In this document: positions 1-6,089 of the stretch, piece after piece | Position numbering within the stretch: the stretch's first letter is position 1 | Layout: every line of letters begins with the position of its first letter | Assembly: GCF_014174255.1 (NCBI RefSeq) | Contig: NZ_JABEQJ010000019.1 | Span: forward strand, 1-64,000 | DNA length: 64,000 nucleotides | From: Gluconacetobacter sacchari | GTDB taxonomy: Bacteria; Pseudomonadota; Alphaproteobacteria; Acetobacterales; Acetobacteraceae | Direction: 5' to 3' | Made by a program: the position numbers and the translations under genes | The notes under the pieces: model-generated | Databases searched by the model: none | Seen by the model: the letters and a program-made list of their open reading frames with translations, nothing else | Told to the model about the DNA's origin: nothing

Positions 1-79
1 GCTCGATCATCTCATGCTGCGCAAGCAGAAGGTCGTTCTTCTCCGCATCGGTCAGTTCATGAAAAAGGGGCGGTGCCAT
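1..79 (-). CDS. Transposase N-terminus (partial, IS66-like)
   Basis: The first 26 codons of a gene that runs off the left edge. They read MAPPLFHELTDAEKN and continue with a Leu/Gln-rich stretch ending in HEMIE. This looks like the N-terminal leader before the coiled coil of IS66-type TnpC transposases. The ATG is at 77-79. The terminal sequence ending at 145 supports a mobile element. Too little is present to prove the family. Confidence 0.45.
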   Translation of the reverse strand, partial: MAPPLFHELTDAEKNDLLLAQHEMIE

Positions 80-145
80 TCGTAGGGTGAATCAAATTTC
101 AGCACCCTCCGTAAGCCCTTCGCTGCCAACCCCGTGAGCAGTTAC
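1..145 (-). mobile_element. Left end of an insertion sequence, probably IS66 family (ISBst12-like)
   Basis: The window opens inside a mobile element. A minus-strand reading frame starts at position 79. Just outside it, the minus strand reads GTAACTGCTCACGGGGTTGG from position 145 inward. A GTAA tip is typical of IS66-family ends, and the lack of tnpA and tnpB genes before the transposase would fit the ISBst12 subgroup. The other end and any target duplication lie outside the window, so the family call is inference. Confidence 0.45.
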
Positions 146-194: not shown

Positions 195-3100
195 TCAGGA
201 AGAGAGACCCATGAAGGAGTCCTGTGTCATGAGGGGGCCTTGATATGCACCCTTATCCAGCGCCGCCATGATCGACTCAGCATAATGGTTTAGATTTTCT
301 ACACTATGATCGAAAACGTAGCTGGTACGGATTGTAGAGTCAGGGACAGCGGCGGAGGAAAAATCTCTGAGGAAACGATGATTATCCATGGATGATAGAA
401 CGTGTGCCGATATGGCATCGTCGTGCAATGCGCTTGTCTGAAAGGTATATGCGCTTATATCTGTGCCACTCTCCGGAGCGAGAAATTTCAATGTGACTTC
501 GGCGGCAGTGCCTTGAGTACGATCCTTGAGAGTCACGATGTGATCGGCACCGATAATATTTCCATTTTGAAATGTGCTTTCCGTTCCTGCTCCCGTGAGG
601 TCGAACGAGGTTATGTCAGTCGCAGAGAGAGGAATGACATCGGACGACAGCGCGGTTTGAGATGTGCCATTATAAGTCCATATGCCAAGCGAGTTCCAGA
701 TTGGATCGCTATTGCTGATTTTTCCATCGTGGTTGGTGTCATATTTCTCAAGTGTAGAGAAAGTCGAAACGAGATCCTTTCCAGTCAAGTTGGCCCCATT
801 GCTCTTGTCGAGATAGACAAGTAATGATTCGCCATTATCGATCCACCCAGTCGGATTACTGTAGCCAGACTGGGAATAGTCAAAGGAAAAATGTGATGCA
901 TCTATAGATGTGGTTTGAATATCGGTGCCGTGCGTGTTGATCACGATGGGATCGTCGCTTTCATACCAATCTTCATCGACATCCGGATCTGTATATCCGT
1001 AGCCTTGGTCGTAATCGAATAGAGAAGTATAAAATTCCTGGTTAAACATTCCATAGTTTATGGAGCCGTTCAGATATGAATTTGCAACGAAAGGATTCGA
1101 TGTTGTGCCGTCGTAGTAAATATAATTTCCGTCTGATATGTATATGTTATTATTGTATATAACTGAAGAATATGATGCAAGATATAAGCTTGATGAGTCT
1201 GATGTTGTGGTGGCTACATTCCCGTTTCCTGATAGCAGGAGGGATGAATTTTCCCCAATAGTTATATTTGAGTTTTTTGATTGTATGTAATTATTTGTTG
1301 ATCCTGATGTTATATTATATTTGTTTTCACCGGATGTATCATAATATGTGTTGCTTGACCCGTTTCCTTCAATGTTATTATTCGACCCGAAGACGTTGAT
1401 TGTCGATCCGGAAGCTAAACCAATAGAGTTATTGTTACCGTAAACGTTGGCCCATGCTCCACCATCGAGATAGAGGCCGGCGGCCTCGCCGTCGGTTGCG
1501 GTTGCGTTGGCGAGATTGCTGGCGGTGACGGTGTTGAGGCTGTTGGGGGCGCCAGGGGCGTCCAGGTAGATGCGGGTGGCGTTACCGGTGGCGGTGATGG
1601 CGTTGTTGGTGCCGAAGACGCCGATTGCCGAGCCGGCATTGAGACCGATGGTGTTGCCATTGCCATAGAGATTGGCGCGGGCGCCGCCATCGAGATAGAG
1701 GCCGGCGGCCTCGCCGTCGGTTGCGGTTGCGTTGGCGAGATTGCTGGCGGTGACGGTGTTGAGGCTGTTGGCGGTGCCTGGCGCGTTCAGGTAAACATGG
1801 GTGGCGTTTCCGGTGGCGGTGATGGCGTTGTTGGTGCCGAAGACGCCGATTGCCGAGCCGGTGTTGAGGCTGATGGTGTTGCTGTTGCCATAGAGATTGG
1901 CGCGGGCACCGCCGTCGAGATAGAGGCCGGCGGCCTCGCCGTCGGTTGCGGTTGCGTTGGCGAGATTGCTGGCGGTGACGGTGTTGAGGCTGTTGGCGGT
2001 GCCTGGGGCGTTCAGGTAGACATGGGCGTTTCCGGTGGCGGTGATGGCGTTGTTGGTGCCGAAGACACCGATAGCCGAGCCGGCATTGAGGCTGATGGTG
2101 TTGCTGTTGCCATAGAGATTGGCGCGGGCACCGCCGTCGAGATAGAGACCGGCGGCCTCGCCGTCGGTTGCGGTTGCGTTGGCGAGATTGCTGGCGGTGA
2201 CGGTGTTGAGGCTGTTGGCGGTGCCTGGCGCGTCCAGGTAGATGCGGGTGGCATTGCCGGTGGCGGTGATGGCGTTGTTGGTGCCGAAGACGCCGATTGC
2301 CGAGCCGGTGTTGAGACTGATGGTGTTGCCGTTGCCGTAGAGATTGGCGCGGGCGCCACCATCGAGATAGAGGCCGGCGGCCTCGCCGTCGGTTGCGGTT
2401 GCGTTGGCGAGATTGCTGGCGGTGACGGTGTTGAGGCTGTTGGCGGTGCCTGGGGCGTTCAGGTAGACATGGGTGGCGTTGCCGGTGGCGGTGATGGCGT
2501 TGTTGGTGCCGAAAACGCCGATAGCCGAGCCGGCATTGAGGCGGATAGTGTTGCTGTTGCCGTAGATGTTGGCGCGAGCATCGAAAAAAGTGATCGTCGC
2601 ATTGGATGCAGAAAGGATACTTCCAGAAGAATAAAGTTCGATAGTTGTATTGTTTCCTGAAACGTTTACGTTTGCTCCGCTCCCTGTTACTTCAACATCT
2701 TGATTGTTTCCTGAAACATTGGTTGTTTCATTATCTCCAACAATTCTTGATGATCCCGCTTCTCCATTTCCAGTGGGCAGGTTGTCGGGAGGAGGAGAAC
2801 CGGAAGAGCCACCATCACCCGTGGTAGGGGGCGATGCGAGATATTTTTCCGATGCAGGCCCAAGAACGTCCAAAACCCTCTGAGCACCCGCCAGATTATC
2901 TCCGGGGTTGAGGCTGACACTTCCATATAAGTCGAGGAGATCGGCACGTGATATGCCATTGATAGATGTGACATTTTCATTGAGAAGGAGGCGGGGGAGT
3001 TCTATTTGAGCGAATACTGCACCCTTGTAATTGTCAACACTTCCAACAATTGCGCCATTGACGAAAGCGACGAGATCGCCGCCTGCTTGTGCAGCATAAA

Positions 3101-3443
3101 TTTTTGAGGCTTCTGTCCATGCTTGGTCTATTAGAGAATTTTCTACATCTGTATTATCTTCCGCCCATTCTAGAAAAGAACCATCTCTAATGAAAGAATC
3201 TATTTTCTGTCCAACGTCAGTGTCGTTAATCCAATACGTTGTTGATGTGTTTTCTTTGTTCAGGTTTTCGGCATTTTTCCAGTTCCCATATACGGCGAGA
3301 TCTCCATTCTCCTTTTTATATTCTTGATAAGATGCGCTGGATTTTGGAGGCGTACCTGAATAAAATATAACGCTCTTGCTCGGTTCAGAAGCGGACCATT
3401 TCTTGCTGGATATATCTGTTATTAAATCATTGAAGCTGTACAT
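195..3443 (-). CDS. Large repeat-rich secreted-type protein (candidate polymorphic toxin or adhesin)
   Basis: A 1082-residue protein. Residues 1-205 form a unique N-terminal domain without a signal peptide. A Gly/Ser/Pro linker and Asn/Gly-rich beta-strand repeats follow, including five near-identical 75-residue units (one is 74). The C-terminal third has the DPIVINTHGTDI segment, an EF-hand-like loop DTNHDGKIS and IWNSLGIWTYN, matching the calcium-binding C-terminal module common in type I secreted RTX-like proteins. Start: ATG at 3443 with AAAAGGA overlapping the stop of the upstream small gene, 15 bp away, so the two are probably cotranscribed. Flanks of the repeats are AT-rich and the repeats GC-rich, unlike neighbouring genes. 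Toxin, adhesin or matrix roles are all possible; no enzymatic motif is seen. Confidence 0.75.
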   Translation of the reverse strand: MYSFNDLITDISSKKWSASEPSKSVIFYSGTPPKSSASYQEYKKENGDLAVYGNWKNAENLNKENTSTTYWINDTDVGQKIDSFIRDGSFLEWAEDNTDVENSLIDQAWTEASKIYAAQAGGDLVAFVNGAIVGSVDNYKGAVFAQIELPRLLLNENVTSINGISRADLLDLYGSVSLNPGDNLAGAQRVLDVLGPASEKYLASPPTTGDGGSSGSPPPDNLPTGNGEAGSSRIVGDNETTNVSGNNQDVEVTGSGANVNVSGNNTTIELYSSGSILSASNATITFFDARANIYGNSNTIRLNAGSAIGVFGTNNAITATGNATHVYLNAPGTANSLNTVTASNLANATATDGEAAGLYLDGGARANLYGNGNTISLNTGSAIGVFGTNNAITATGNATRIYLDAPGTANSLNTVTASNLANATATDGEAAGLYLDGGARANLYGNSNTISLNAGSAIGVFGTNNAITATGNAHVYLNAPGTANSLNTVTASNLANATATDGEAAGLYLDGGARANLYGNSNTISLNTGSAIGVFGTNNAITATGNATHVYLNAPGTANSLNTVTASNLANATATDGEAAGLYLDGGARANLYGNGNTIGLNAGSAIGVFGTNNAITATGNATRIYLDAPGAPNSLNTVTASNLANATATDGEAAGLYLDGGAWANVYGNNNSIGLASGSTINVFGSNNNIEGNGSSNTYYDTSGENKYNITSGSTNNYIQSKNSNITIGENSSLLLSGNGNVATTTSDSSSLYLASYSSVIYNNNIYISDGNYIYYDGTTSNPFVANSYLNGSINYGMFNQEFYTSLFDYDQGYGYTDPDVDEDWYESDDPIVINTHGTDIQTTSIDASHFSFDYSQSGYSNPTGWIDNGESLLVYLDKSNGANLTGKDLVSTFSTLEKYDTNHDGKISNSDPIWNSLGIWTYNGTSQTALSSDVIPLSATDITSFDLTGAGTESTFQNGNIIGADHIVTLKDRTQGTAAEVTLKFLAPESGTDISAYTFQTSALHDDAISAHVLSSMDNHRFLRDFSSAAVPDSTIRTSYVFDHSVENLNHYAESIMAALDKGAYQGPLMTQDSFMGLSS
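1459..2585 (-). repeat. Five in-frame 225-bp tandem repeats within the large protein
   Basis: The landmark TCGAGATAGAG recurs with start steps of 225, 225, 222 and 225 bases (near 1464, 1689, 1914, 2136, 2361). Each unit encodes 75 residues, running from ARANLYGNGNTI to AAGLYLDGG. One unit lacks a single Thr codon, giving the 222-base step. Copies differ at only a few bases, which suggests recent expansion or gene conversion. A degenerate half unit continues toward the C-terminus. Confidence 0.9.
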
Positions 3444-3458
3444 AAAATATTAATCCTT

Positions 3459-3899
3459 TTAGCAGGAAACTTCTGTTATTTCGTAGTTTGTAGGAATAAA
3501 TCCTGGGTCTGGTCGGTCCTTTCGCCAAAGCGGTAATGCTTCGTGTAGGTGAACTCTGATGGAATCGATTTCCTCCTTGGTCGGGGTATAATCCTCCTTG
3601 TTTCCATCTTCTATATTTCCAATTATTTTCATGTATGTGGCAAAGCCAGGACGAAGAGGCGCCGAAACGAACATATTTTTCTTATTCTCGGGGTCAAGAT
3701 CTTGGGTGGCGTAAATGCATACTTCTAAGGCGCCTTTTCTATAAACAAGTGTTCTGATATTTGCTATCGGGACGGTAACTGTCCACATAATGATAACACC
3801 ATCATCTGATGCAATTGCCTGGCAACGTTGCGGCTTTTTCAGGGGGTATTTTCTGCCTGGGGTACCGTAGAGCATTCCGGATGTGAGCGTCCATTTCAT
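3459..3899 (-). CDS. Small partner protein of the large repeat protein, copy 1 (unknown family)
   Basis: A 146-residue cytosolic-looking protein with no signal peptide or membrane segment. I do not recognise the family. It begins MKWTLTSGMLYGTP and carries a C-terminal motif EEIDSIRVHLHEALPLW that is shared with two other genes in this island. It ends 15 bp before the large repeat gene, whose ribosome site overlaps its stop. Copy 2 at 4991-5431 matches at about 120 of 146 positions counted by eye. Position before a large secreted-type gene and multiplication in paralogous copies resemble immunity proteins or dedicated chaperones, but this is inference from arrangement only. Confidence 0.7.
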   Translation of the reverse strand: MKWTLTSGMLYGTPGRKYPLKKPQRCQAIASDDGVIIMWTVTVPIANIRTLVYRKGALEVCIYATQDLDPENKKNMFVSAPLRPGFATYMKIIGNIEDGNKEDYTPTKEEIDSIRVHLHEALPLWRKDRPDPGFIPTNYEITEVSC

Positions 3900-4064
3900 G
3901 ATCTAATCGCTTTCTGGTGGTTGGAGGATGTCATTTTTCGTAACGATATTCACTGAATCGGAAGAGATTTGTCCATTGGAAGAGGAATGCGATCAAGTTC
4001 CTTTTGATTCGGTTGGTGTTTTCTGTCGAGTGGGCATAGAGGATACGAATTATTGATGTGCATT

Positions 4065-4199
4065 TCAAAAGTGCTTTATACGGAATAGCTTAGAAGCAAT
4101 ATCAGTAGGAAACTCGTTAATATTTTCCTTATCTGTTCGATATTCCTGATGGCGTGAATCAGAAGGTGATTTGATTAATTTTTCGCGGAACTCCGAAAA
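4065..4199 (-). pseudogene. Possible C-terminal gene remnant next to the IS relic
   Basis: On the minus strand a frame without a start stays open for about 44 codons up to TGA at 4065-4067, with Glu/Lys/Asp-rich content such as RHQEYRTDKENINEF. It begins where the decayed IS5-like transposase ends. It may be the 3' end of a gene cut by the insertion. The stretch is short enough to be chance. Confidence 0.25.
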
Positions 4200-4205
4200 T
4201 ACCAG

Positions 4206-4690
4206 TGATCATCAGTCATACTTGGGATGAGGAGGGCAAAGTCCGCATCAGGCAAAGCGGCCTTCGACGATTCAGCGTTCGGGCCGGGGAAACAAAGAGC
4301 GTATCCTGCTCGCTATCAGCCGCTTACCGTCGCGATCCTGAACATCGACGGGATGGACGACGATCGCTACGACATGATTCAGCATGTTGGTCTGCGATCT
4401 GCCTCATGGTCCGGTAATCCTCTTGTTCGTGTCATAACCGCGCGGGCCGTCACTTTCAGCGGTTTCGACCGATTGGCTATCGATAACGCCCAGAGAAGGC
4501 GTAGCATCTCATCCATTCTGTTCACAGGGCAGGATCACAAGAATATGGTTCATGGCCGCTTACTGTCCTTCATGTATCCATCGGTAGAAATAACCTTGCA
4601 CAGTCGTGAAGGCGGGAAAGTGTCGGGGCAATTACCGCCATTGGTCGCTGGCCGTGACGATATGGAGGATCGCCGTCCATGACGCGACGC
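4206..4690 (-). pseudogene. Decayed IS5-family transposase
   Basis: Translated on the minus strand with frameshifts and stops, the region still shows classic IS5-family blocks in order: AILHIVTASDQWR, LPRHFPAFTTVQGYFYRW, GVIDSQSVETAESDGPRGYD, then VAIVVHPVDVQDRDG. The DSQS segment holds the first catalytic Asp of the DDE triad. The C-terminal third is missing and no terminal repeats are obvious, so the element is inactive. It separates two copies of the island module. Confidence 0.8.
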
Positions 4691-4859
4691 AATCAGCGCC
4701 GATTCTGCATCGTGCAGGTCATTTGCCTATTCTCGAACGTTCCGAGGATATTGCGCGCGGGGGATGATTTTAATCCAAGCCATCTTGATCTCATCAGGTT
4801 CTCGTATGACATTGAACCATAACATGCTAAAATTAGAAAATTTATGTTTAATCATGCAT

Positions 4860-4975
4860 TAGATATGCTGGATTTTGAATGAGTGGCAGAATAAAATAGA
4901 GCGAATTTTTTCAGATGTGTAATAATATAATTCGTCGTTGGATATATCTGTTATTAATTCATTGACGGTGTATAT
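4860..4975 (-). pseudogene. 5' stub of a second copy of the large repeat gene, start codon lost
   Basis: Downstream of small-gene copy 2, the minus strand repeats the beginning of the large gene. The ATG of the intact gene (3441-3443) is ATA here (4973-4975). Codons that follow read YTVNELITDIS against YSFNDLITDIS in the intact copy. The match fades through SEKIRSILF against SEPSKSVIF and hits a stop near 4861. The shared ribosome site AAAAGGATTAATAT is still present. This is a truncated, start-less relic. Confidence 0.8.
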
Positions 4976-4990
4976 AAAATATTAATCCTT

Positions 4991-5431
4991 TTAACAGGAA
5001 ACTTCTGTTATTTCATATTTTGTGGTAATGAAGCCAGATTCCGGTGGGTCCTTTCGCCAAAGCGGCAATGCTTCATGTAAGTGAATGCCGATGGAGTCGA
5101 TTTCCTCCTTGGTTGGGGTGTAATACTCCTTTTTTCCATCTTCTATATTTCCTATTATTTTCATATATGTGGCAAGACCAGGACGAAGAGGTGCCGAAAC
5201 AAAAATATTTTTTTCGTTCTCGGGATCAAATTCTCTTATGGCATAAATGCATACTTCCAATTCGTCTTTTCTATAAACAAGTGTTATGATATTTGCTATC
5301 GGAACGGTAGCTGTCCACATAATGATAACACCATCATCTGATGCTATTGCCGGGCGGCGCTCCGGCTTTTCCAGGGGATTTTTACCGCCTGGGGTACCGT
5401 AGAGCATTCCGGATGTGAGCGTCCATTTCAT
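4991..5431 (-). CDS. Small partner protein, copy 2 (unknown family)
   Basis: A 146-residue paralogue of the gene at 3459-3899, of the same length and alignable end to end, with the same EEIDSI..HLHEALPLW motif near the C-terminus. The duplicated block also includes about 30 bp upstream of the ATG and the first part of the large downstream gene, so a whole module was copied. Its own large partner is now only a stub. An intact small gene beside a dead partner is what orphan immunity genes look like, but no function is known from the sequence. Confidence 0.65.
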   Translation of the reverse strand: MKWTLTSGMLYGTPGGKNPLEKPERRPAIASDDGVIIMWTATVPIANIITLVYRKDELEVCIYAIREFDPENEKNIFVSAPLRPGLATYMKIIGNIEDGKKEYYTPTKEEIDSIGIHLHEALPLWRKDPPESGFITTKYEITEVSC

Positions 5432-5465
5432 GATTTGATCGCTTTCTGGTGGTTGGGAGGCGGCT

Positions 5466-6089
5466 TTACAAGATCATGTTAACATCGCCGGATGCTTGTT
5501 CAGCAAAGCGCTTTGCCGCTGCGTCCCACAATTGATTTTCCTCGGATATGCGAAAGGGCGCGTCATCGGCAATATTTTCGGTGATGGCTTTTTCGATGTT
5601 GAAGCCGAGTTCCGTGCTGTTGAGCCAGTATGCCGATTGACGGGGATCACTGGCGCGTTCCTCGGCCAGATACCAATTCAGCCGTTCCGTCGAAAGCTTG
5701 ATGCCGGCAAGCGGTCCGTCATCTGGATGGAAGAGGTTTTTCCATTGAGGAAGGGCTTCGGCCAGGTTCCGCTTGATCTGGTCGACTTCGTCTGGTGAAA
5801 TAGTATAGGGATTAGGCTTGCCGATATTCTTGCGAATAAAATTCGCGAGATCGGACAGAAGGAAAAGATCGAGAGAGATACAATCAATATTGTTCATTTT
5901 TATTTTTTTCTTCAATATTGAGAGGTCTATTGAAAATTTTGATGTTTTGTATTTGAAAACATTGAAGCCCCCCCAGATCGATTTATCGAAGAGGATAGAG
6001 ATCCCGTCGTCATTGGTAAGGAGGGGGTGACGGATGGTGCCACCTTTGTATGAAGACGGCAGCGATATGATTTCTTGTTTCCAGGCCAT
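5466..6089 (-). CDS. Chimeric protein: small-partner domain fused to the start of a large repeat protein
   Basis: A 207-residue protein with two sections. Residues 1 to about 125 are a diverged member of the small-partner family, recognisable by DEVDQIKRNLAEALPQW. Residues from about 140 align with the N-terminal domain of the large repeat protein: YWLNSTELG against YWINDTDVG, and FAEQASGD against YAAQAGGD. It stops abruptly at 5466, exactly where the duplicated block carrying copy 2 begins. It looks like a third module whose two genes fused in frame and then lost the rest of the large gene. It may be expressed but is probably non-functional as a large-protein partner. Confidence 0.6.
   Translation of the reverse strand: MAWKQEIISLPSSYKGGTIRHPLLTNDDGISILFDKSIWGGFNVFKYKTSKFSIDLSILKKKIKMNNIDCISLDLFLLSDLANFIRKNIGKPNPYTISPDEVDQIKRNLAEALPQWKNLFHPDDGPLAGIKLSTERLNWYLAEERASDPRQSAYWLNSTELGFNIEKAITENIADDAPFRISEENQLWDAAAKRFAEQASGDVNMIL

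Follow-up and report, generated by a model that had tools for sequence, protein, structure and literature searches.

Results

Layout of the locus

We analysed a 64,000-nucleotide stretch of Gluconacetobacter sacchari DNA (contig NZ_JABEQJ010000019.1; hereafter the window), the first 6.1 kb of which carries on the minus strand a large repeat-rich gene in the company of small genes. In the order of transcription, these are an open reading frame (ORF) of 207 amino acids (aa), an ORF of 146 aa, relics, a second ORF of 146 aa, and an ORF of 1082 aa. As judged from sequence comparison, the 1082-aa protein begins with an ADP-ribosyl cyclase (ARC) domain of the CD38 type, a known toxin fold, and the 146-aa protein is a candidate for the cognate immunity protein. 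The features of the locus, some of which are distinguished by their guanine-plus-cytosine (GC) content or by the ratio of nonsynonymous to synonymous substitutions (dN/dS), are as follows:

195..3443, minus strand: large ORF, 1082 aa, with an N-terminal ARC-like domain, a DUF3060 beta-repeat array and a C-terminal region common to RTX-type proteins
2937..3383, minus strand: ARC (CD38/Tox-ARC-like) domain, residues about 21-169 of the large protein (phmmer, PF02267, outside-ARC profile)
3459..3899, minus strand: small gene copy 1, 146 aa, candidate immunity protein (ORF, dN/dS, structure model)
4991..5431, minus strand: small gene copy 2, 146 aa, 82% identical to copy 1 (ORF, dN/dS)
5466..6089, minus strand: half-ARC fusion gene, 207 aa, with a small-protein-like domain to residue ~133 and then an ARC-like part ending GDVNMIL
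1387..2583, minus strand: GC-rich array of about six 75-residue DUF3060-type repeats (Pfam, self-comparison, composition)
420..959, minus strand: C-terminal region, residues about 829-1008 of the large protein (relatives in five other genomes of the bacterial family)
4858..4975, minus strand: relic, a second copy of the 5' end of the large gene within a 599-bp duplication (self-comparison)
4330..4600 (approximate limits), minus strand: degenerate stretch with stops (frame translation)
1..145, no strand assigned: IS66-transposase-like stretch where the contig ends, downstream of the large gene (77% similarity to an annotated Novosphingobium plasmid stretch)

An initial annotation, made from the letters alone, had described a 146-codon gene positioned 15 bp ahead of a 1082-codon gene, and this was confirmed by the ORFs at 3459-3899 and 195-3443, with a gap of 15 bp. 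Its count by eye of 26 differences in 146 residues between the two small proteins, or about 82% identity, was exact. At the nucleotide level, 59 of 441 positions differ, distributed over the first, second and third codon positions as 15, 8 and 36, and the dN/dS between the two copies is 0.21. Both copies therefore behave as genes. Self-comparison revealed a single 599-bp duplication with 84% identity (4858-5456 versus 3327-3924), which comprises the small gene together with ~115 bp from the start of the large gene, and the upstream duplicate retains only a relic of the large-gene start. The sequence thus shows duplication of the small gene together with the start of the large gene, and intact small genes under purifying selection. 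The three equal units of the initial annotation did not hold up, since there is one duplication, the upstream copy of the large gene is a relic, and the third unit is a half-ARC fusion. The degenerate stretch at 4330..4600, located between the duplicated units, is presumably an IS5-type transposase.

The large protein carries an N-terminal ARC domain

A profile search on the N-terminal part of the large protein, which the initial annotation had proposed, revealed the ARC domain that this annotation had missed (PF02267, 2.7e-5). The module can thus not be called wholly undescribed, as the toxin domain of the large protein belongs to a described family. With phmmer, the first 193 residues matched two solved bacterial ARC toxins, Tac1 (9ouf, 2.1e-5) and ARCtox (9ro8, 5.6e-5). 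A Pfam scan of the whole protein returned the DUF3060 repeats at 5.3e-19 and a weak match to ADP-ribosyl cyclase, while the first 193 residues alone scored 24.1 bits against PF02267. We also built a profile that included no window sequence, based on ARC proteins from three other sources (Pantoea agglomerans, Gloeothece and genome G326). This outside-ARC profile scored the first 200 residues of the large protein at 59.3 bits (3.9e-17 among 2005 sequences), and the best of 2000 shuffles reached 10.2 bits. The catalytic residues given for ARCtox in PMC12605009 are W273, E299, W323 and E356. E148 of the large protein, within the segment IELPRLL, aligns with the essential E356, and W109 aligns with W323.

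The ARC domain lies at the N-terminus, and not at the C-terminus as in a classical polymorphic toxin. Pfam and NCBIfam scans of the large protein detected no PAAR, Rhs, VgrG, LXG or TPS trafficking domain. The placement of the ARC domain is unusual but not unique, because an N-terminal ARC domain also opens a 282-aa hypothetical protein on plasmid Cy782202 of Gloeothece verrucosa (L059, 2231-3079). That plasmid was typed as conjugative, and its ARC gene lies near a type IV secretion gene. A canonical-looking ARC toxin occurs elsewhere in the bacterial family of the window.

Repeat array, C-terminal region and composition

The repeat-rich character noted initially was borne out by about six DUF3060 repeats of 75 residues, the signature matches of which start at residues 289, 364, 439, 513, 588 and 663. 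The corresponding stretch at 1387-2583 consists of near-identical 75-codon units of about 64% GC in a gene that otherwise has 40-48% GC, which suggests either that the array expanded recently or that the repeats have an origin of their own. Apart from the array, the whole module has 40-48% GC, compared to 66% for the window. With this low GC content and the IS66-like contig edge, the module looks like an acquired island. The predicted protein has an isoelectric point of 4.2 and lacks cysteine. Residues ~829-1008 were found in 6 of 150 genomes of the bacterial family, the own genome included, and two of the proteins from the other five genomes carry GGxGxD-type repeats. The large protein shares this C-terminal region with Acetobacteraceae RTX-type proteins, but differs in having no GGxGxD. 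The window genome encodes two HlyD proteins over the cut-off, and it yielded no match to VipB of the type VI secretion system (T6SS).

The small protein

The initial annotation recognised no family for the small protein, and our searches agreed with this. At E up to 1, neither window copy was matched in Pfam or NCBIfam. Three relatives were scanned at E up to 10, and all their Pfam matches were below the cut-off; a small-family profile against PDB gave nothing significant (best E 1.1). Copy 1 was not matched in PADLOC, and PHROG gave one marginal match at 0.075. Imm74 (PF15603) was absent from the Pfam matches of the window copies and the three relatives at these same thresholds, and there were 0 PF15603 matches in the window genome. 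AlphaFold2 modelling with six sequences gave a best model with a predicted local distance difference test score (pLDDT) of 76.6, the other four of the five models scoring 52-58. In the model, the small protein adopts a beta-rich fold with a single long helix. No signal sequence was seen by eye. Beyond the window, dN/dS values were 0.20-0.24 among three A. farinalis copies and 0.14-0.31 between the A. malorum and A. farinalis genes, the latter with dS near saturation. No description of the small family or of the half-ARC fusion was found in the literature searched.

A half-ARC fusion protein

The third, diverged small domain of the initial annotation is a real homologue, but it represents the N-terminal part of the 207-aa protein. 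Its first ~130 residues matched the small protein in hhalign at 96.1% (E 3.5e-9), and the homology is well supported at the sequence level. The motif EEIDxI..HLxEALPxW, previously ascribed to all three proteins, reads DEVDQIKRNLAEALPQW in the 207-aa ORF, where it is thus not exact.

The last ~75 residues resemble the helical region of ARC. A half-ARC profile found the ARC domain of the large protein at 1.3e-5, and the large-protein N-terminus as query found the 207-aa protein at 1.0e-3. With the outside-ARC profile, all four half-ARCs ranked above the 2000 shuffles (best E 5.9e-4), although the weakest one (E 0.046) reached 10.4 bits versus 10.2 bits for the top shuffle. Counting against ARC homology, the half-ARC profile matched no PDB chain, and PF02267 gave only 0.09 and 0.08 on half-ARC proteins. 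The large ARC domain and the half-ARCs have in common the segment YWINDTDVGQKID / YWxxSTExGxxIE, which is an insert relative to the outside-ARC profile.

All four aligned half-ARCs end at GDV plus 3-4 residues and thereby stop short of the region that holds the essential Glu. Their Trp, YW, E-K and LW positions are unchanged throughout. Between A. malorum and A. farinalis the half-ARC has a dN/dS of 0.12 (ARC part 0.10, dS about 1.6). Comparison of the window and A. malorum proteins showed 47 of 89 identical residues in the ARC part and 35 of 118 in the N-terminal domain. From these comparisons, the half-ARC does not look like a dead fragment. The structure model was too poor for use on the ARC part.

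Distribution and neighbours of the small gene

When a single small protein was searched against 397 genomes of the bacterial family (E <= 0.01), four matches were obtained: the own genome, G030, G375 and G111, the last of which was treated as chance. A contig scan recovered Acetobacter farinalis (G030) and A. malorum (G407). Among 49 Acetobacter genomes, the small profile matched in six and the half-ARC profile in three. In class-wide searches each profile matched 1 of 337 genomes, the window's own. Among the genomes searched, the small family was found only in Acetobacteraceae, and patchily.

The initial annotation had pictured a fixed pairing of the small gene with the large one and proposed a tally of its neighbours. 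No relative outside the window stood beside a large gene in the flanks read, and the outcome named by that annotation as a refutation, small-gene homologues mostly away from the large gene, is thus realised in part. The steadier partner is the half-ARC, because three of the six Acetobacter genomes with a small-gene match also hold a half-ARC gene, with the small gene after it. The two genes are adjacent in all four half-ARC genomes (window, A. malorum, A. farinalis and G375). The pair of A. malorum is clean, with 37 bp between the half-ARC gene and the small gene that follows; the half-ARC has 208 aa counted from the second Met or 216 from the first. On contig 24 of A. farinalis (L009, 7014-10078), three half-ARC/small pairs occur in tandem, 1060 bp apart; all three small genes are intact, but of the half-ARC copies two are broken and one has no 5' part. 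Beside these pairs lies a gene for a 641-aa protein, which we take to be a Hint-type exoprotein. In G375, the half-ARC is accompanied by a small gene that is split over two frames. G410 (L038, 3898-5323) has an intact lone small gene, with no half-ARC match and no large ORF of such kind nearby, next to a split and presumably transposase-like gene that may have replaced its partner. The small-gene match of G316 contains one stop, and that of G427 is a 39-residue fragment.

The N-terminus of the large protein gave five matches in the 397 genomes: the own genome, a T6SS-type protein of G326, the half-ARC of G375 and two others that were treated as chance. Among these 397, the domain in the form present in the window occurs in the own genome only. 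Genomes G407, G410 and G427 were outside this sample; in these, no large-type ARC gene was found with the half-ARC profile or in the few kb of flank read.

Discussion

We give an about even chance to the view that the large protein is an ARC toxin that depletes NAD(P) and the small protein its immunity protein, with toxicity, export and immunity, and likewise the half-ARC's role, being what we infer. The locus would then be a horizontally acquired toxin-immunity island. In its large protein, a stalk of beta-repeats would display the ADP-ribosyl cyclase/NAD(P) glycohydrolase domain at the N-terminus and be followed by a C-terminal region of the RTX-protein type. The protein would probably be exported by a type I-like route and kill by hydrolysis of NAD(P)+. 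The 146-aa protein, as the best candidate, would block the ARC cleft. The small gene would have been duplicated at the locus, and its relatives kept elsewhere while the ARC partner decays. Such retention of the small gene where ARC partners decay is expected of an immunity gene. Downstream of the large gene there are only 194 bp to the contig end, and these hold no other immunity candidate. The half-ARC would be a related accessory, an immunity-like domain joined to a partial ARC that lacks the known mechanism of NAD hydrolysis, and is most likely a binder or a decoy. The initial suggestion of a conflict-type exoprotein and an immunity-like partner agrees with the large protein carrying an ARC domain of the toxin kind, whereas the fixed small-plus-large pairing is not supported.

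Several observations weigh against this toxin-immunity interpretation. The small gene precedes the putative toxin gene. Immunity genes usually follow the toxin gene, and an upstream gene could equally encode a chaperone. It is also odd for an immunity protein that a paralogue is fused to a half-ARC, and in the flanks read, none of the small-gene relatives from outside the window neighbours a large gene or a complete ARC. The PF02267 score of 24.1 bits is just below the curated cut-off of 25. Depending on the alignment, the counterpart of ARCtox W273 is Y28, W55 or W71, and E299 corresponds to D82 in one alignment and to no residue in another. The fold comparison of the small protein gave no convincing match, and hhalign related it to Imm74 at 0.4%, a weak test with a set of four sequences, two of which pass the PF15603 cut-off, one falls under it and one was picked by eye. 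The export route is a guess, because GGxGxD repeats have zero occurrences in the large protein and no secretion genes were seen adjoining its gene.

The gene order could also mean that the small protein serves ARC-bearing proteins as a secretion chaperone or adaptor and is not an immunity protein, an explanation that we regard as unlikely. The small gene lies directly upstream of the large gene, and in Pantoea agglomerans a DcrB-related gene, which we take to be of the chaperone type, precedes a PAAR-ARC gene that is followed by an annotated Imm74 gene. However, the Acetobacter small gene comes after the half-ARC gene and not before it, and G410 keeps the small gene without a nearby large ORF of such kind. 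Similarly improbable in our estimate is that the true module consists of the half-ARC and the small gene, as an Acetobacteraceae regulatory or defence pair binding NAD or ADP-ribose, and that the large ARC gene lies beside them by chance. The adjacency in four of four half-ARC genomes, the strong constraint on the half-ARC and the restriction of the large N-terminal domain to one of the 397 genomes are consistent with this, but the YWxxSTExGxxIE segment suggests a common history of the large ARC and the half-ARCs, and the 599-bp duplication took the small gene and the large-gene start together. It seems very improbable that the large protein serves as an adhesin or surface protein, with an ARC domain that is inactive and without a toxic role. 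Although the long repeat array and the uncertain front Trp/Glu pair of the active site would agree with it, the domain retains the essential Glu as well as the downstream Trp. Moreover, the ARC domains tested in conflict settings in the two 2025 papers (PMC12605009, PMC12356396) hydrolyse NAD(P)+.

The toxin domain itself is not new, since Tox-ARC had been predicted in 2012, together with its main immunity protein Imm74 (Zhang et al. 2012, PMC3482391), and bacterial CD38-type ARC toxins were characterised only in 2025 (PMC12605009, PMC12356396). ARCtox/PANA_2924 of Pantoea ananatis (PMC12605009, PDB 9ro8) resembles the large protein in the second Trp, the essential Glu and the ELPRL...N.NVT segment, but there the ARC is located C-terminally on a T6SS PAAR protein with the immunity gene downstream, whereas the ARC of the window opens a beta-repeat protein and the partner gene lies upstream. 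An ARC NADase domain is present in Tac1/Tci1 of Streptococcus parasanguinis (PMC12356396, PDB 9ouf) as well, but this is an LXG toxin of the type VII secretion system with Imm74 immunity, to which the small protein shows no relation. The same source notes T6SS-associated ARC toxins with a non-Imm74 neighbour gene. The Tox-ARC class with Imm74/Imm63 (PMC3482391) matches the toxin domain of the large protein; in contrast, no Pfam family matches the small protein over the cut-off, and the half-ARC fusion was not found in the passages of that paper that were examined.

The locus thus offers a further candidate immunity family, and an ARC domain at the N-terminus instead of its usual C-terminal place. 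The conserved half-ARC, which lacks the essential Glu, would let one test directly what a single lobe of the CD38 fold can do. A more speculative idea, which we hold to be doubtful, is that it forms a new functional class in which an immunity-type beta domain replaces the second CD38-type lobe and the Trp/Glu/Trp face of the NAD pocket is kept, as an NAD-binding sensor, a decoy, or part of a split enzyme together with the small protein. If this were true, the small family would be a new family of inhibitors or partners specific to ARC folds.

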